The notes beneath the pieces were generated by a model. That model saw nothing but the letters and a program-made list of their open reading frames with translations, did no database searches and was not told the origin of the DNA. Below are positions 4,960 to 13,013 of a stretch of DNA of 64,000 nucleotides, one piece after another. Location of the stretch: positions 124,001 through 188,000 of the forward strand of contig NZ_AQWM01000001.1 of the NCBI RefSeq assembly GCF_000376105.1. Direction: 5' to 3'. The translations under genes and the position numbers were made by a program. The stretch is from Asticcacaulis benevestitus DSM 16100 = ATCC BAA-896. Lineage in GTDB: Bacteria > Pseudomonadota > Alphaproteobacteria > Caulobacterales > Caulobacteraceae. Numbering within the stretch: position 1 is the first letter of the stretch; each line of letters begins with the position of its first letter.

Positions 4960-7356
4960 TTACCGCTTCTTTTTCTTTTTGGCGTTCTTGACGCCTTGCG
5001 GAATGAAACCCTTGGGCCGGCCGCCGGTCTTCGGACCGGGCTTGCCGCTGCGGGGCTGGAAGGCCTGACCGGTGCGGGCACGCACACCCAGACGGGCGCG
5101 CGGCGCGTTCGGATCGGCGGCCTCGGGTTCGCTCAGCATCTTGAAGACCAGCCCGCCGGTGATCGGCATGGCCTCCATCAGTTCGACTTCGATATTCGTG
5201 CCCAGGCGCCAGCGCTGGCCGCTCCGTTCGCCGATCAGGGCGTGCTGCACATCATCATGGACGAAATAGTCATTGCCCAGCGACGACACCGGGATGATGC
5301 CATCAGCGCCGGTCTCGGTCAGCTTCACGAACAGGCCAAAGCGCGTGACGCCGACGATGCGGCCCTGGAAGGTGGCACCGACCTGATCCTGCAGGAAGGC
5401 GGCGATATAGCGCTCGATGGCCTCACGCTCGGCCTTCATCGAGCGGCGCTCCGTCTCGGTGATGTGCTCGGCGGTGTCCTTCAGTGTCTTGATCTCGTAG
5501 TCGGTCAGGCCGTCATCACCCAGCTTGAGGGCGCGGATCAGGCCGCGGTGGACCACAAGGTCGGCATAGCGGCGGATCGGCGAGGTGAAGTGGGCGTAGT
5601 TATCAAGATTAAGCCCGAAGTGGCCGTAGTTCTCCGGCGAATAGTGCGCCTGCATCTGCGTGCGCAGCACCACTTCGTTGATGATTTCGGCGTGCGGACC
5701 GTCCTTCTGGCCATCGAGCAGGGCGTTGAAGCGCTCGGTGCGCGGCGGCTCGCCCTTGGTCCACGGCAGGCCGAGCGTGGCGAGGAAATCGGCCAGATTG
5801 CCGATCTTTTCCAGTGAGGGCGCTTCGTGGACGCGGAAGATCAGCGGCGTCTTGTGTTTTTCCAGCGCTTCGGCGGCCGAGACATTGGCCTGGATCATCA
5901 TCTCTTCGATGAGTTGCATGGCATCTAAGCTGACGCGCGGCTCGATCTTGATGACCTTGCCCTCGGCATCGAGCGTGATCTTGCGCTCAGGCGAATTGAT
6001 ATGCAGGGGCTGGCGGATATTACGGCCGCGCGTCAGGCAGGCGTGCGCCTCCCACAGGGGCTTCAGCAGCGTATCGAGCAGCGGGCCGGTCTTGTCGTCC
6101 GGCGTGCCGTCGATGGCGGCCTGCGCCTGCTCGTAGCTCAGCTTGGCGGCCGAACGCATCAGCCCGCGCACGAAGCTGTGGCTGAGCTTCTTGCCGGCGG
6201 CGTTGAACACCATCCGCACGGCCAGGGTGGCGCGGTTCTCGCCTTCCTGCAAGCTACACAGGCCGGAGGAAAGGACATGCGGCAGCATGGGCTCGACGCG
6301 ATCGGGGAAGTAGGTCGAATTGCCCTTGTCGCGCGCGTCCTTGTCGAGTGAAGACCCCGGCGTCACATAGTGCGCCACGTCGGCGATGGCGACCCAGACG
6401 ACATAACCGCCCGGATTGGCTTCGTCCTCGTCGCGGTGGGCGTAGACGGCGTCGTCGTGGTCCTTGGCGTCGGAGGGATCGATAGTGATGAAGGGCAGGT
6501 CGCGCAGGTCGGTGCGCTTGCCCAGCCCGGGCGCCTTGGCGGACTTCGCCTCAAGCTCGGTGTCGGCGTTGAAGCCGATGGATAAGCCATGGCTGTGGAT
6601 CGACATGATCGAAGCCACCTTTGGCTCGTCCTCCTTGCCGATGACCTCGATCACCTTGGCGGGCTTGGGGCCATAACGCGTGATGCCGCCAACCGGCGCG
6701 GCCACCACCACGTCGCCGTCTTCCAGCGCGTCGAGGCCCTGACCGGTGAGGACGTAGTTTTCCTTGGTCTTGCGATTGACCGATTCCAGCCTGATCTCGC
6801 TGACACCCTTGCGCTGGCGGCTGATCCGCACAACGCCGACCACTTTGGGCGCGCCCTGATCGAGCACCTTGATCAGGTGTGCCACCCAGCCGTCGGAGGT
6901 CTTCTCGAAGCGCGCAAAGATGCGGTCGCCGATGGTCGGCGGCGTCTGGACAACGGACTTTTTAAGCGGCGCCAGGCGCGCCAGCGGTGGCTTGGCCTTG
7001 TCCTTCTTCGTGTCTTCCGGCTTGCCCCACTGCACCCACAGTTCGCCGTCGATATCGCGCTCGACCACTTCGCAGACGCCGGTATCGGGCAGGGCGCCGA
7101 TGGCGCCGAAGGTCTTGCGGCCGCGCTTGTCGAGCTGGCCGGCTTCGGACAGATGCTTCAGACGCTGGCGCAGCAGGCGGCGGTCGTCGCCCTTGAGTCC
7201 GAATTGCTTGGCAAGATCGCCGACATCGAGTTCACGATTGGCGGCCAGCGCGTCCAGCAGGGTCTGGTCGTCGGGCAGGCCCCTGGCGACTTTTACGATG
7301 GGGGAGTTCAGCGGTTTGGCGGCGCGGGGCACGCGGGGGAATTTGCTCATGGCCAT
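4960..7356 (-). CDS. rnr: Ribonuclease R
   Basis: A 798-residue 3'-5' exoribonuclease. Order of parts: N-terminal winged-helix-like region (about 20-90), cold-shock/OB region, RNB catalytic domain with the metal-binding run DPSDAKDHDD beginning at D293, an S1 domain near 630-710 (GRIVGVTRFGLFVKL), and a lysine-rich tail ending KKKKKR. The RNB signature HFTSPIRRYADLVVHR is intact. It degrades structured RNA, rRNA and defective transcripts. Two in-frame ATGs, at 7356 and 7350, are possible starts; neither has a strong ribosome site. Confidence 0.95.
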   Translation of the reverse strand: MAMSKFPRVPRAAKPLNSPIVKVARGLPDDQTLLDALAANRELDVGDLAKQFGLKGDDRRLLRQRLKHLSEAGQLDKRGRKTFGAIGALPDTGVCEVVERDIDGELWVQWGKPEDTKKDKAKPPLARLAPLKKSVVQTPPTIGDRIFARFEKTSDGWVAHLIKVLDQGAPKVVGVVRISRQRKGVSEIRLESVNRKTKENYVLTGQGLDALEDGDVVVAAPVGGITRYGPKPAKVIEVIGKEDEPKVASIMSIHSHGLSIGFNADTELEAKSAKAPGLGKRTDLRDLPFITIDPSDAKDHDDAVYAHRDEDEANPGGYVVWVAIADVAHYVTPGSSLDKDARDKGNSTYFPDRVEPMLPHVLSSGLCSLQEGENRATLAVRMVFNAAGKKLSHSFVRGLMRSAAKLSYEQAQAAIDGTPDDKTGPLLDTLLKPLWEAHACLTRGRNIRQPLHINSPERKITLDAEGKVIKIEPRVSLDAMQLIEEMMIQANVSAAEALEKHKTPLIFRVHEAPSLEKIGNLADFLATLGLPWTKGEPPRTERFNALLDGQKDGPHAEIINEVVLRTQMQAHYSPENYGHFGLNLDNYAHFTSPIRRYADLVVHRGLIRALKLGDDGLTDYEIKTLKDTAEHITETERRSMKAEREAIERYIAAFLQDQVGATFQGRIVGVTRFGLFVKLTETGADGIIPVSSLGNDYFVHDDVQHALIGERSGQRWRLGTNIEVELMEAMPITGGLVFKMLSEPEAADPNAPRARLGVRARTGQAFQPRSGKPGPKTGGRPKGFIPQGVKNAKKKKKR

Positions 7357-7405
7357 AATGTAAGGGAGTCTCGCGTTTGAGACCATCCCCCGAGGCACAA
7401 AATCC

Positions 7406-7876
7406 TTATGAGAAGGCGGAAGGGGCCTGATCGGGCGGCAATTGCATCAGGGTGAACCAGTATTGTTCGATGCGCGCCACGATATCGTCATAGGTTTCGG
7501 TGGTGACCGGCTTGGTGATGTAGCCGTTGGCGTGGCGGTCATAGCTGCCGATTACGTCCTTGTCGGCGCTGGAGCTTGACAGAATAATGACCGGGATGCG
7601 CTTGAAGTCAGGATCGGACTTCACCGTCTGGAGAAAATCCTGACCGTGCATGTGGGGGAGGTTGAGATCGAGCAGGATGATGTCGGGGCGCGGGGCGCCG
7701 GCGTGCTCACCTTCGCGGCGCAGGATGCTCAGGCCTTTTTCACCGGTTTCCGCCACCACGATATCGCTGGCGATATTGGCGCGCCTGAAGGCACGTCGGG
7801 TCAGGACAGCATCACCCCGATTATCCTCGATCAGCAAAACCTGCGGCGGGCGATCTCTGTCGGTGATATGTGTCAT
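7406..7876 (-). CDS. Rcp1-like single-domain response regulator
   Basis: A 156-residue receiver with acidic residues E17-D18, phosphoacceptor D70 (ILLDLNLPHMHG), the SSS switch and K in YITKPV. The motif LLIEDNRGDAVLTRRAF and the extended loop before D70 are typical of the Rcp1 type that partners phytochrome-like kinases. There is no output domain. It is transcribed away from the ETR1-like kinase gene, and closely resembles the receiver on the other side of the kinase (9592), so both are probable partners. Its start lies 27 bases from the CTGTGATCACAG palindrome. Confidence 0.9.
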   Translation of the reverse strand: MTHITDRDRPPQVLLIEDNRGDAVLTRRAFRRANIASDIVVAETGEKGLSILRREGEHAGAPRPDIILLDLNLPHMHGQDFLQTVKSDPDFKRIPVIILSSSSADKDVIGSYDRHANGYITKPVTTETYDDIVARIEQYWFTLMQLPPDQAPSAFS

Positions 7877-7902
7877 GTAGCGGGTCCATAGTAGTCATCC
7901 TG

Positions 7903-7914
7903 CTGTGATCACAG
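7903..7914. promoter_or_regulatory. Palindrome CTGTGATCACAG, candidate operator
   Basis: A perfect 12-base palindrome in the 194-base divergent region between the receiver gene and the ETR1-like kinase gene. Its ten-base core, TGTGATCACA, is identical to the core of the five polyamine-island palindromes; only the outermost pair differs (C/G instead of T/A). Function is inferred. Confidence 0.45.
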
Positions 7915-8070
7915 GTTCGGCTAATTTGTCCCTTTCCGCAAGCGGTTTCCTTCGAAGGGGCCGTTGTTACTACACCCAATCGCCTGTCTGGTGTTTCGTT
8001 TGCTTTTTGACTCAATTCGCGCTTGTTAAGGGCAAAACGGACTCACCTTTGCCGGGAAGGACGACACGAC

Positions 8071-9570
8071 GTGGATCACGATATGAACGTCAACCAATTT
8101 ATGCCGCATGGCTACTGCTTTCTGTGGCAGCCCGGTATTTTGTGGCTCCATGTCCTGTCAGATCTGGGGATTGTTCTGGCCTATTTCGGCATTCCCCTGG
8201 CGCTGATCTATTTTATCAGGAAGCGCAAGGATCTGCCGTTTCAGATGGTGTTCGTGCTGTTCGGCGCCTTCATCCTGCTGTGCGGCTTCTCGCACCTTCT
8301 TAATATATGGGTGCTGTGGCATCCGGACTATTACTTCGAAGGTGTTATCAAGGCGCTGACCGCCGTGGCCTCGATCGCCACCCTGGTCACCATTGTGCGC
8401 ATGATGCCGAAAGCCTTGGCCCTGCCGAGCCCGAAGCAACTGGCCGACGCCAACGCCAGGCTGGAGGACCTTCATCGGCAAAGCGAGGAGAACAACCGTG
8501 CCGCCATGGGCGCGGTGGTCGATAACGTCCTCGATGGTGTGATCACGATCGATGAGAATGACCGCATTCAGAGCTTCAACGCCGCCTGCGAGAGCATTTT
8601 CGGCTATAGCGCCGAGGAAGTGCAGGACAAGCCGATCAGCCTTTTGATGCCCGACCCGACCTATACCGAACACGACCGATACATCGGCGAATATCTGAAT
8701 ACCGACACCACTGGCCGCGAGGTCAAGGCGCGGCGCAAGGACGGCACGGAATTCCCGGCCGATCTGTCGGTCAGCGCCTTCGAAATTGACGGCAAGCAGC
8801 ACTATACCGGCATCGTGCGCGACATCACCAAGGCCAAGCTGGCCGAGGACAGCCGCCAGAGGCTGTTGCGCCGCCTGACCGATTCCAACACCGAACTGGA
8901 GCGCTTCGCCTATGTCGCCTCGCATGACATGCAGGAGCCCCTGCGCATGGTGCTCAATTTCAGCCAGATCGTTGCCAAGGACTATGCCGACAAGCTCGAT
9001 GACGACGGCAAGGAATATCTCAAGATCATCGGCGATTCGGCGATGCGGATGCGCGACATGGTGCAGGATCTGCTCGAATATGCCCGCGTCGATAAGGAAG
9101 GCTTCCGCTGTTCCGATGTCGATATGCGCACCGAACTGGTGCATGTGCTCGATAACCTGCGCGCCCTGACCCGGGAGAGCCTGGCGGTCATCACCTATGA
9201 CACCCTGCCGCGGCTCAAGGGCAATGGCGTGCAACTGATGCGCCTGATGCAGAACCTCGTCACCAACGCCATCAAGTATCAAAAGCCGCGCCGTCTGCCG
9301 GTCATCCATATCGGTGTGGCGGACGACGGGGATATGTGGAGGTTTTCGGTGAAGGATAACGGTATGGGCATTGATGAGGCCTTTGTCGGCCAGATTTTCG
9401 AGCCCTTCCGTCGGCTGCATAGCTGGGACGGCATCCAGGGCACGGGGCTGGGCCTCGCGGTCTGCCGCAAGATCGTAGAGAACCACGGCGGCCGCATCTG
9501 GGTGGAATCCGAGCAGGGTGTCGGTTCCACCTTTTTCTTTATGATCCCGAAAGACCTTAAGAGCGTATAA
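8071..9570 (+). CDS. Membrane histidine kinase with ethylene-receptor-like (ETR1-type) sensor domain and PAS domain
   Basis: A 499-residue kinase. Three transmembrane helices (about 25-110) match the ethylene-binding domain of plant ETR1: D31, Y38, I41, P42, and C71-x3-H75 in LLCGFSHLLNIW, equal to ETR1 D25, Y32, I35, P36 and the copper ligands C65/H69. A PAS domain (about 150-265), a HisKA domain with H285 in ASHDMQEPLR, and an HATPase with NAIKYQ and GTGLGL follow. There is no GAF domain and no attached receiver. A GTG at 8071 has a GGAAGGA ribosome site 9 bases ahead; an ATG at 8083 is the alternative. Flanked by two Rcp1-like receivers. Ethylene or another small ligand as signal is inference from the conserved copper site. 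Confidence 0.9.
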   Translation: MDHDMNVNQFMPHGYCFLWQPGILWLHVLSDLGIVLAYFGIPLALIYFIRKRKDLPFQMVFVLFGAFILLCGFSHLLNIWVLWHPDYYFEGVIKALTAVASIATLVTIVRMMPKALALPSPKQLADANARLEDLHRQSEENNRAAMGAVVDNVLDGVITIDENDRIQSFNAACESIFGYSAEEVQDKPISLLMPDPTYTEHDRYIGEYLNTDTTGREVKARRKDGTEFPADLSVSAFEIDGKQHYTGIVRDITKAKLAEDSRQRLLRRLTDSNTELERFAYVASHDMQEPLRMVLNFSQIVAKDYADKLDDDGKEYLKIIGDSAMRMRDMVQDLLEYARVDKEGFRCSDVDMRTELVHVLDNLRALTRESLAVITYDTLPRLKGNGVQLMRLMQNLVTNAIKYQKPRRLPVIHIGVADDGDMWRFSVKDNGMGIDEAFVGQIFEPFRRLHSWDGIQGTGLGLAVCRKIVENHGGRIWVESEQGVGSTFFFMIPKDLKSV

Positions 9571-9591
9571 TCTTTCATAGGAGTGCAAAAC

Positions 9592-10047
9592 ATGGTCAAT
9601 CTGCTTATCCGCGAAGGGCGCGCAGCGGAAATCATGCTGGTGGAAGATAATCGCGGCGATGCCCTGCTGGCCTCACGCGCCTTTCGCCAGGCCGAGATCG
9701 ACAACAACCTGACCGTAGCGGAAACGGCCGAGACGGCCCTGTCGATGCTCAGGCGCGAGGGGGATTACGCCGGGATGCGCCTGCCGGATATCATCCTGCT
9801 CGATCTCAACCTGCCAAAGATGAGCGGCAAGGAACTGCTTAGCCTTATCAAGAACGACGAGGGCTTGCGCCATATTCCGGTGATCATCCTGTCCAGTTCG
9901 GCCGCCGAGCTGGATATTGCCGGCAGCTATGGTCTTCACGCCAACGCCTATATCGTCAAGCCGCTCAATCTGCAGAATTTCACCGACGTCGTGCGCTCGA
10001 TCGAGCAGTTCTTCTTCATGCTGGCCGTTTTGCCGGGGGCGGATTGA
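9592..10047 (+). CDS. Rcp1-like single-domain response regulator
   Basis: A 151-residue receiver with E18-D19, phosphoacceptor D71 (ILLDLNLPKMSG), SSS switch and K in YIVKPL. It begins 21 bases after the ETR1-like kinase with a TAGGAG ribosome site, so both are one operon. Its sequence is close to the receiver at 7406 (for example the shared EDNRGDA and LRREG stretches), suggesting a duplication around the kinase. With no output domain it likely works by phosphotransfer or protein binding. Confidence 0.92.
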   Translation: MVNLLIREGRAAEIMLVEDNRGDALLASRAFRQAEIDNNLTVAETAETALSMLRREGDYAGMRLPDIILLDLNLPKMSGKELLSLIKNDEGLRHIPVIILSSSAAELDIAGSYGLHANAYIVKPLNLQNFTDVVRSIEQFFFMLAVLPGAD

Positions 10048-10336: not shown

Positions 10337-12196
10337 ATGAAACACACGCTCACTCTGGCGCTTCTGGCGTCCATGGTTTCCATGCTGCCGTTCGCAGCCC
10401 ACGCCCAGTCCTATGACCGTCTGGTCAGCTTCGGCGACTCGCTCAGCGACCCCGGCAACCTGTTCACCGCCACCGGCCAGCCGCCCGCCCCCTATAATCG
10501 CCGTTTCACCAATGATCTGGTGTGGAACGAATATCTTGCTGGCAGCGGCCTCAACTTCTTCGGCTCGCCCGCAACCATCAACAGCGGCAATGTCTATTCC
10601 GGCTGGGGCGGGGCGCGGTCCGATTCCGCCGCCAACTCCAGCGGCCCCATCCCCGGCACGCCGACCCAGATCGGCGCCTATCTGGCGCGCGGCGGCACCT
10701 TTGGGGCCAATGACGTCGTCTCATTATGGGCCGGCGCCAACGATATCTTCCAGGCGCTGCCAACCGCTGCGGCTAATCCCGCGACCGCCTCGGCCTATAT
10801 GACGGGCATCGCCAGCACGGCGGCCGGCAATGTCAGCAGCCAGGTTGGGCAACTGGCCACCGCCGGCGCAAAGACCATCGTCGTCATGAACCTGCCAGAT
10901 CTCGGTTCGACGCCGCAGTTCAACACCAGCATCACCACATCGGGCCTGACCACCTACACCACGGGCGTCTTTAACACCGCGCTCGACACCGGCCTCAACG
11001 CGGCGGCAGCGGCACACAGTGACACCAATATCGTCGAGGTCGATATCCGTTCGGCCTTCAGCGCCATCGTCGCCGATCCGCAAGGCTTCGGGTTCAGCAA
11101 TGTCACCCAGGCCTGCATCACTGTGACGGCCTGCGTCACCGGATCGCAGGAAACCCGCAACAGCTATCTGTTCTGGGACGGCGTCCACCCGACGGCGGCT
11201 GGTCATCAACTGGTGGCCAACCTGGCCGCGCAATATCTTTACACACCCACCCTGACCCGCGGTGTCGGGATGCTGGCCGAGCAGGGCTACACCACCCGCC
11301 GTGCGATTCAGGCCGAGATGGGCTCGCTGCTGCATCGCGCCACCGGCGAGGGCTATTTCGTCCAGATCGTCGGGGCGCAAGGATCGCGTGACACCTCGCT
11401 CGCCATGCAGGACGGCATCGGCGGCGATGACGCCAGCTCTGACGTCAAGGCCTATGATTACAGCCTGGCCGGCGTTCGCGCGGGCGCCGTGCAGTCGATC
11501 GGCAGCGCCACCACTTTTGGCTTTGGCGTCACTGCCCTGACCGGTGATTCCAAGGGCTTCCTCGTCACCGCCAAGCCGACCGATCTGAGCTTTGATCTGG
11601 GCCTTGACTGGCGTCCCGGCCGTTATTTCATTACCGCGACAGCGGGCGCCGGCATCACCAGTTTCAGCGATTATGAACGCCATACGCTGATCAACGCCTT
11701 CCGCGAGACGGTCAATCATGTCGATACCGCCGCCTATTCGGCGCAAGTCCAGACCGGCTTCGATCATGCCATGGGCGATTGGACGGTCACGCCGGTAGCG
11801 CGTCTGTCCTATGCCAGCGCTACGATGAAGGGCTTCAAGGAGCGCGGCACGGTGGCGGCGGTCGGCTTTGAGGACCGCAAGGTGTCGGCGCTGTCTGGCG
11901 CGGTCGAACTCCAGGCCAGTGGCAAGCTCAGCGAAAATGTCTCCTTGAGCGGTGTGCTGGGTTATGAGGCCGTGCTGAGCGGCGATCAGGAAGACCTGCG
12001 CGGCAAGCTGATCAACAATACGGCGCAGGCCTTTGCCACCAAAATGGGCGATGTCGGCAGCCCCGGCGTACTGGTCGGCATTGGTCTGGAGCGCAGGATG
12101 GGCGGCTATGCGCTGTCGGCGCAATATCGCGGCACCTATGGCTCTGACAGCCAGCAGGACCAGACCGCGCTGATTTCTCTGAATAAAGCGTTTTAG
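10337..12196 (+). CDS. GDSL-family autotransporter esterase/lipase
   Basis: A 619-residue outer-membrane protein resembling EstA. A Sec signal (cut after AHA, residue 23) is followed by a GDSL/SGNH hydrolase passenger: block I FGDSLSD with nucleophile S35, block III GAND, and block V WDGVHPTAAGH with the catalytic Asp and His. From about residue 330 a beta-barrel autotransporter domain runs to the C-terminal aromatic residue (LNKAF), the BAM recognition end. The passenger is expected to be displayed at the cell surface and hydrolyse esters. It stands alone and ends just before a GC-rich hairpin. Confidence 0.92.
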   Translation: MKHTLTLALLASMVSMLPFAAHAQSYDRLVSFGDSLSDPGNLFTATGQPPAPYNRRFTNDLVWNEYLAGSGLNFFGSPATINSGNVYSGWGGARSDSAANSSGPIPGTPTQIGAYLARGGTFGANDVVSLWAGANDIFQALPTAAANPATASAYMTGIASTAAGNVSSQVGQLATAGAKTIVVMNLPDLGSTPQFNTSITTSGLTTYTTGVFNTALDTGLNAAAAAHSDTNIVEVDIRSAFSAIVADPQGFGFSNVTQACITVTACVTGSQETRNSYLFWDGVHPTAAGHQLVANLAAQYLYTPTLTRGVGMLAEQGYTTRRAIQAEMGSLLHRATGEGYFVQIVGAQGSRDTSLAMQDGIGGDDASSDVKAYDYSLAGVRAGAVQSIGSATTFGFGVTALTGDSKGFLVTAKPTDLSFDLGLDWRPGRYFITATAGAGITSFSDYERHTLINAFRETVNHVDTAAYSAQVQTGFDHAMGDWTVTPVARLSYASATMKGFKERGTVAAVGFEDRKVSALSGAVELQASGKLSENVSLSGVLGYEAVLSGDQEDLRGKLINNTAQAFATKMGDVGSPGVLVGIGLERRMGGYALSAQYRGTYGSDSQQDQTALISLNKAF

Positions 12197-12314: not shown

Positions 12315-13013
12315 TTAAGACGAACTGATCAAGCCGGCGGCGATATTGATCGTCAGGGCCAGAACCGTGGCGTTGAAGAGATAGGCCGTTACGCAGTGGA
12401 TCAGGCCAATGCGACGCATATTGGTGGTGGCGAAATCGACGTCCGCTGTCTGGCCCGATGTGCCGATAACAAAGGCGAAATAGAGAAAATCCATATAGTG
12501 CGGTGCCTTGGTGCCGGGAAAGATCAGCGACGGCTCGCCCTTGTTGCGCGGAAGTTCGGCATAATAGCCGTGGGCGTAATGGAAGGCGAAGGCGATGTGG
12601 ATATAGGTCCAGGCGGTGATCAGGGTCAGGCCGGAGAGGGCGACATGCCAGGCTTTTGCCGCGTCGCTGACGTTCTGCGTGGTCGCCAGTTCGCCGATGA
12701 TAGCGACGAAACTCAAAATAGCCGCCAGAATCGACAGCAGGAGAATCACCCCTTCGCCATCGTCATAAAGGTGGGCGTGGCTTTCGAGGCTGGCGCGATC
12801 GGCGGTCAGCATGGCCTGAAGCGCAAGGGCGATGTAGGGAACCGTGAAACAGTTCCACGCGATCAGGGCGCTGGTGATGCCGTTGAGGTGCGTGAAACCA
12901 AGGCAAAAACCCAATACCGCAAGGCCAGTCAGCAGTGAAAAGACAAGTTGGGGTTTGTGGCGCAGATATCGGATAACGGTGAGATTTAAAAAGCCGGTCT
13001 TGCGGGACGTCAT
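12315..13013 (-). CDS. DUF1345 family integral membrane protein
   Basis: A 232-residue protein with about five to six hydrophobic helices. The C-terminal part carries the DUF1345 signature DFLYFAFVIGTSGQTADV. The family is of unknown function and sits in the inner membrane. No strong ribosome site precedes the ATG at 13013. It is divergent from the SRPBCC gene and convergent with the autotransporter. Confidence 0.85.
   Translation of the reverse strand: MTSRKTGFLNLTVIRYLRHKPQLVFSLLTGLAVLGFCLGFTHLNGITSALIAWNCFTVPYIALALQAMLTADRASLESHAHLYDDGEGVILLLSILAAILSFVAIIGELATTQNVSDAAKAWHVALSGLTLITAWTYIHIAFAFHYAHGYYAELPRNKGEPSLIFPGTKAPHYMDFLYFAFVIGTSGQTADVDFATTNMRRIGLIHCVTAYLFNATVLALTINIAAGLISSS

Follow-up and report, generated by a model that had tools for sequence, protein, structure and literature searches.

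Does a stalked member of the Caulobacterales carry an ethylene receptor, and to what would such a receptor signal? The question is raised by three adjoining genes in a 64,000-nucleotide stretch of the genome of Asticcacaulis benevestitus DSM 16100 (contig NZ_AQWM01000001.1, positions 124,001 to 188,000), referred to here as the window. The central gene encodes a sensor histidine kinase with an N-terminal ethylene-binding domain (EBD) and stands between the genes for two stand-alone receivers, R1 on the reverse strand and R2 on the same forward strand as the kinase. An earlier interpretation made from the letters alone, the sequence-only reading, had placed the kinase at 8071 between two receivers, and these coordinates are correct. 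The module is probably a bacterial ethylene receptor two-component system with two single-domain receivers. In two related genomes the same module is found with a sensor that has lost the ethylene-binding pocket.

The ethylene-binding domain

The Pfam profile ETR1_N matches residues 23-118 of the window kinase with 133.1 bits (E 4.3e-39, cut-off 27), which bears out the ETR1-like membrane domain proposed by the sequence-only reading. A profile search found this to be the one ETR1_N domain in the genome. The residues D31, Y38, I41, P42, C71 and H75 (numbered from 8071) are present as had been stated, and I68 completes the full seven-residue ethylene-binding set; we take these to be the counterparts of the AtETR1 residues that ethylene binding needs. 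The number of AtETR1 residues required for binding is reported as seven (PMC11819568). In an alignment with Arabidopsis ETR1, the EBD shares 40% identity across 119 columns (78.6 bits), and its K94 aligns with K91 of ETR1. The best of 200 shuffled copies, run against ETR1 without composition adjustment, reached 26.2 bits. Chance resemblance is thus ruled out both by this difference and by the 133 bits for ETR1_N, which had no match in the control genomes (0 of 14).

AlphaFold models were made of the whole kinase (26 sequences; mean predicted local distance difference test, pLDDT, 83.7) and of the EBD alone (55 sequences; mean pLDDT 86.8). Both predict three membrane helices, at residues 21-51, 58-83 and 87-116. 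D31 to P42 fall inside the first predicted helix and K94 inside the third. The placement of the Cys/His pair had been set beforehand as a test of the sequence-only reading, and both models put C71 and H75 inside predicted helix 2. A search for a solved homologue of the EBD was negative both for sequence (E 1) and for fold (E 0.001), so the fold is one predicted by AlphaFold alone.

The residue set is also conserved among relatives. It is complete in 9 of the 11 Asticcacaulis modules and in 33 of the 36 loci of the family, 34 of which have both Cys and His. For the class and phylum samples, in which residues were counted for matches that came with a locus, the seven residues occur in 20 of 29 loci (28 aligned) and 15 of 27 loci (26 aligned), and Cys with His in 24 and 23, respectively. 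Among 80 further loci, kept from 141 by two patterns, all seven residues are found in 60 and Cys with His in all 80; the latter count is not independent evidence because one of the patterns contains the Cys. A second EBD copy in one genome, G551 (L059), has the copper-ligand Cys replaced by Gly and the other six residues intact.

An ethylene receptor is indicated by the ETR1_N score, which matches that of the proven binder AzoEtr1 (133 versus 132 bits), by the retention of the residue set within the genus and family, and by the position of Cys and His in helix 2. From the sequence, we infer ethylene as the ligand of the EBD. Alternatively, the domain could bind Cu(I) and sense a different cue, such as copper itself, the redox state, or another gas or alkene. 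Homology yields a pocket and not a ligand, and the linkage of related stand-alone domains to SCO1/SenC, described below, is also compatible with copper sensing. However, 9 of the 11 modules retain the ligands along with the other residues needed for ethylene binding, and both SynEtr1 and AzoEtr1 are reported to bind ethylene (PMC11819568). A different cue is considered rather unlikely.

From the sensor to the receivers

The Pfam scan confirmed the order PAS-HisKA-HATPase after the EBD and found no GAF domain in the kinase at E 0.001, as the sequence-only reading had it. The GAF domain that follows the EBD in the subgroup of SynEtr1 and plant ETR1 is thus absent, and a hybrid or GAF-bearing receptor is ruled out because the scan shows no such domain. 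The kinase motifs are intact, with H285, N399, G459 and G461 nearly invariant in alignment A4. An unnamed histidine kinase is the best PDB match of the kinase core, followed by bacteriophytochrome kinases. Elsewhere in Asticcacaulis (L134-L143) a related core is joined to other inputs, namely PAS-PAS, long N-termini that are not EBDs, and a receiver, so sensor change on this kinase core seems common in the genus.

The PAS domain might itself be the main sensor, detecting oxygen through a FixL-like haem, with the membrane domain serving mostly as an anchor that can hence lose its pocket. Of its 14 PDB matches, 13 are FixL or DosP-type haem domains, counting as DosP the chains labelled yddU and heme PAS sensor. 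Both the proximal His that binds the haem in FixL and the distal Arg have aligned counterparts in the window PAS. The aligned His is kept in 8 of the 11 modules, and in two genomes, G014 and G119, the module is present but lacks the pocket. Against this, the loop that follows the aligned His is shorter than that of FixL by 5 residues, the pocket is whole in the other 9 modules, and the His is replaced in three (L092, L094, L103), though another His lies nearby. The PAS of the module therefore does not combine a full-length loop with a His kept across orthologues, as the FixL type does. Because of the shorter loop and the three modules without the aligned His, haem in this domain is only a lead, and haem oxygen sensing is retained as a rival main function that we regard as highly improbable.

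R1 and R2 each consist of a Response_reg domain only (Pfam) and are 54% identical across R1 residues 8-148, in agreement with the earlier description of two flanking receivers that are alike. Their description as Rcp1-like stands for R1, whose best solved-structure matches are 5te9, RcpA and Rcp1; the structure search was run for R1, and R2 is classed as Rcp1-type solely because it resembles R1. All 21 aligned receivers (11 R1 and 10 R2) retain the acidic pair, the phospho-Asp, a Ser and the Lys. A divergent R1 gene lies beside the kinase in all 11 Asticcacaulis modules and R2 lies downstream of it in 10. Intact kinase motifs, intact receiver phospho-residues and this linkage together argue for a two-component system.

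It is not given that both receivers serve the same kinase. R2 begins 21 bp past the kinase stop and is probably co-transcribed with it, and R2 could be the sole partner if R1 belonged to another kinase and were a neighbor by history. R1 is transcribed separately, and a tree of 38 receivers (window R2 entered twice; 13 of 34 forks open) places it with two receivers encoded elsewhere in the same genome (L158, L164). However, the group of R2 likewise includes one further receiver from this genome (L168), and R1 adjoins the kinase even more regularly than R2. In addition, an Acetobacteraceae metagenome-assembled genome has a contig (L206) that ends inside an EBD gene, from which an R1-like receiver gene diverges, and this receiver falls in the R1 group. 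An arrangement with R2 as the only partner is therefore doubtful. Within the tree the R1s and R2s form two groups, with support of 100/99 and 98/94, so their split predates the radiation of the genus.

In the mechanism proposed for the module, the three-helix membrane domain would hold Cu(I) through C71 and H75, and ethylene would bind this copper. The resulting change would reach the kinase core by way of the PAS domain and alter the flow of phosphate from H285 to R2 and to R1. Both receivers lack an output domain, so the response would probably be exerted through protein contacts, affecting attachment or motility, and not through direct gene control, by analogy with AzoEtr1 and SynEtr1.

Several observations weigh against an ethylene receptor. 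There is no ETR1_N match at E 0.001 in 14 of the 25 Asticcacaulis genomes. R2 is missing in G052 (L103). The three neighboring genes scanned with Pfam, which encode RNase R, an esterase autotransporter and a DUF1345 protein, give no pointer to ethylene or copper. Lastly, the module persists without the pocket in G014 and G119, so ethylene is not indispensable to it. At the R2 position of G052 (L103 8461-8540), a short peptide that by eye resembles the N-terminus of R2 is followed by an unrelated gene.

Sensors without a pocket

In G014 (L121) and G119 (L122), the kinase and both receivers are kept and the sensor is without the pocket Tyr, Ile, Pro, Cys and His. In the alignment, C71 and H75 are both replaced by Ala, Y38 by Ala or Cys, I41 by Leu or Met, P42 by Gly or Ala, and I68 by Ser or Met. 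D31 is unchanged, and at K94, the position of ETR1 Lys91, both have Arg, another basic residue. While the PAS domain and kinase core of these proteins are 67-79% identical to those of the window, the sensors are only 47% and 31% identical, and ETR1_N scores 59 and 57 bits on them. An assembly error is unlikely, as two separate genomes, each listed as 100% complete, carry such a sensor. A wider family of pocket-free sensors in the Caulobacteraceae was also considered and rejected: the profile built from the two sensors matches 36 of 199 genomes, as many as ETR1_N does, with only its own two members above 200 bits and the next match at 132.

The closely related sister genome of G014, G114 (L088), has an intact sensor. 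Their PAS domains are 95% and their kinase cores 99% identical, while the sensors are 47% identical. Taken 60 columns at a time, DNA identity lies mostly at 0.83-0.98 on either side and drops to 0.30-0.70 at about 6700-7310 of L088. This low-identity stretch of about 600 bp covers the gap between R1 and the kinase and the sensor-coding part, and it stops at the border between sensor and PAS. Since identity also dips elsewhere (0.58 in the gap after R2, at 8870, and 0.75-0.80 at a few places), only the coding part of the diverged stretch is firm.

Synonymous divergence follows the same border. For G114 and G014, dS is 0.98 in the sensor and 0.34 in the PAS-kinase part (pS 0.548 and 0.274), a contrast with an approximate Fisher's p of 1e-5 to 8e-7 when 0.7-0.9 synonymous sites per codon are assumed. 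The corresponding dS values are 0.17 and 0.19 for the window and G137, 0.90 and 0.72 for the window and G114, and 1.40 and 0.82 for the window and G014. Single values are noisy, in that two pairs are near saturation: G014/G119, at 2.33 and 2.22, and G114/G119, which at 0.99 and 2.11 runs the opposite way. The sensors of G114 and G014 are as distant as those of deeper splits, and the kinases are not.

The trees differ accordingly. G014 groups with G119 in the sensor tree (100/99) and with G114 in the PAS-kinase tree (98/97). The sensor data reject the pairing of G114 with G014 (p 0.007) and do not reject a clade of the five sensors of the window group (p 0.119). It looks like the sensor was swapped by recombination; G119 was not the immediate donor, because the two pocket-free sensors are only 43% identical.

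The low-identity stretch could alternatively reflect fast decay in place. Both pocket-free sensors are long branches, the PAS-kinase data reject the grouping of L121 with L122 only at p 0.047, and the low identity of the two sensors, together with saturated synonymous divergence, means that no close donor is in hand. However, decay of the protein would not raise synonymous divergence, and between G114 and G014 this is raised as well. The window/G137 and window/G114 pairs show little contrast between sensor and PAS-kinase, and the pocket-free sensors group with strong support where the sister pairing is rejected. Decay in place is thus judged unlikely.

The PAS-kinase part of G014 and G114 has a nonsynonymous divergence (dN) of 0.025 against a dS of 0.34, which indicates that the pocket-free kinase is still under selection. 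With some reserve, we lean towards the view that the Asticcacaulis EBD is an exchangeable cassette that has been replaced in place by a copper-free version, with the kinase under purifying selection, both receivers kept and the kinase running on a ligand-free sensor. Two possibilities follow: the pocket-free sensor responds to a different cue, or its role passes to the PAS domain.

Gene layout and neighboring genes

The features are collected in Table 1. GTG at 8071 was taken as the kinase start, where several orthologues open with M-x-H-D at the same place. For R2, ATG 9592 was preferred over GTG 9583 because AGGAG precedes the ATG. RNase R adjoins the module in just 5 of the 11 fetched Asticcacaulis stretches and was rejected as a functional clue. 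The GDSL-esterase autotransporter is near the module in 6 of the 11 (L087, L091, L122, L093, L103, L089) and is perhaps a functional link of the module to the cell surface.

Table 1. Features of the kinase module and its surroundings, in window positions
Feature	Position	Strand	Basis and remarks
EBD-PAS-HisKA-HATPase sensor histidine kinase	8071..9570	+	499 aa, GTG start; Pfam, orthologue start region, AlphaFold model
ETR1-type ethylene-binding domain, residues 23-118	8137..8424	+	PF25487 (ETR1_N) 133 bits; EBD-only model mean pLDDT 86.8
Codons C71 to H75 (C71 and H75, predicted Cu(I) ligands, helix 2)	8281..8295	+	Sequence; predicted helix 58-83; invariant in alignments A1, A5
PAS domain, FixL-like	8512..8832	+	Pfam; alignment to FixL chains
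HisKA and HATPase_c kinase core, phospho-acceptor H285	8896..9552	+	Pfam
R1, stand-alone Rcp1-like receiver	7406..7876	-	156 aa, divergent; Response_reg 64.1 bits; PDB matches RcpA, Rcp1
R2, stand-alone receiver, R1-like	9592..10047	+	151 aa; Response_reg 60.5 bits
Divergent intergenic region, R1/kinase	7877..8070	.	Counterpart falls in diverged stretch of G014/G114
RNase R	4960-7398	-	Pfam; on R1 side of module
GDSL-esterase autotransporter	10337..12196	+	Pfam; on R2 side of module
DUF1345 protein	12315-13013	-	Pfam; beyond GDSL-esterase autotransporter

Comparison with described receptors

AzoEtr1 from Azospirillum brasilense Sp7 was experimentally shown to bind ethylene and was described in 2025, according to its authors, as the first ethylene receptor in a proteobacterium (PMC11819568). 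It resembles the window kinase in possessing the seven residues plus the Lys (D35 Y42 I45 P46 I72 C75 H79 K98), in its ETR1_N score, in the PAS, HisKA and HATPase domains that follow, and in a single-domain receiver, AzoRRetr1, encoded directly downstream (PMC11819568). In A. brasilense, receptors with C75A or D35A did not restore biofilm formation, and the position of ETR1 Lys91 is linked to receptor output in the same report (PMC11819568). Unlike the window module, AzoEtr1 has one receiver instead of two and is plasmid-borne (Sp7 plasmid record, L291). No relative of R1 or R2 was found in this stretch at E 1e-5, and the likeness of the two kinases is concentrated in the EBD. Literature searches naming Caulobacter or Asticcacaulis gave, by title, no characterised ethylene receptor of the Caulobacterales, with most subscription journals outside their coverage. 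On these titles, and with AzoEtr1 called the first in a proteobacterium, the earlier remark that none had been characterised in stalked Caulobacterales stands.

SynEtr1 (slr1212) from Synechocystis is also an EBD histidine kinase that signals through a receiver (PMC11819568, PMC7700396). In contrast to the window kinase, it is reported to carry a GAF light-sensing domain (PMC7700396), and the response regulator it works with, slr1213, is a transcriptional activator of a small RNA (PMC11819568). Plant ETR1 shares the three-helix copper/ethylene domain, at the identity given above, and differs from the window kinase in its GAF domain. The N-terminal Cys4/Cys6 pair of ETR1 is without a counterpart in the window kinase, which has one Cys, C16, in its first 70 residues. 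Plants signal mainly by a kinase-independent route (PMC11819568), unlike the phosphate flow proposed here. The Cph1-Rcp1 phytochrome pairs are similar in their signaling parts, with bacteriophytochrome kinases among the best PDB matches of the core and RcpA and Rcp1 among those of R1, whereas their input is a phytochrome and that of the window kinase an EBD.

Distribution and stand-alone ethylene-binding proteins

ETR1_N was found in 36 of the 199 genomes of the family sample, 11 of them among the 25 from Asticcacaulis, and in 28 of 385 and 29 of 398 genomes of the class and phylum samples, respectively. At the remaining 25 family loci the EBD belongs to different proteins; the stretches fetched around them, some of which are cut off where a contig stops, contain no receiver that exceeds 28 bits against R1 or R2. 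Of the class and phylum samples, 20 loci were fetched, and 5 of them (L251, L258, L260, L263, L266) have an Rcp1-like receiver downstream. A pattern scan of named genomes, based on a single sequence, gave no relative.

Eight short EBD reading frames were inspected. Five of these (L241, L243, L247, L255, L258) encode the EBD as a separate protein of 138-165 residues, and each such gene touches or overlaps the gene of a histidine kinase whose N-terminus is, by eye, hydrophobic; the remaining three (L186, L217, L252) do not fit this pattern. A SCO1/SenC gene (132-148 bits) directly precedes the EBD gene in four of the five loci, which then run SCO1/SenC, EBD, kinase and Rcp1-like receiver (L258 6788-9985, L243 4346-7102, L247 4352-7120, L241 4364-7782). 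In the fifth (L255 7693-10156) the EBD gene overlaps the kinase gene, with no SCO1 adjoining. Downstream Rcp1-like receivers are thus present at four of the five loci. Among these proteins, the Pfam scans covered two EBDs and three kinases. The SCO1/SenC family delivers copper, and the linkage is a hint of copper for the EBD family; the four loci with SCO1/SenC are possibly split ethylene receptors with their own copper supply. A literature search on SenC gave no paper naming it among the matches listed.

Biological meaning

The EBD-PAS-kinase layout is not new, because AzoEtr1 already has it with one downstream receiver. Bacterial EBD proteins are reported to have a wide range of outputs (PMC7700396), so a new combination was to be expected. 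The putative window receptor belongs to another alphaproteobacterial family than AzoEtr1, on a different kinase and with Rcp1-like receivers. What is new here is the presence of pocket-free relatives in an otherwise conserved module. They are the most informative feature of the system and allow a clean test both of ethylene as a signal in such bacteria and of the working of a receptor that lacks its metal. If the cassette interpretation is true, the pocket-free kinase would run without a ligand, even though the corresponding single substitutions, C75A and D35A, abolished AzoEtr1 function. The stand-alone EBDs beside SCO1 suggest how some bacteria may load the metal. If the exchange is real, G014 and G114 would form a natural pair for studying the role of ethylene outside the cyanobacteria and Azospirillum.

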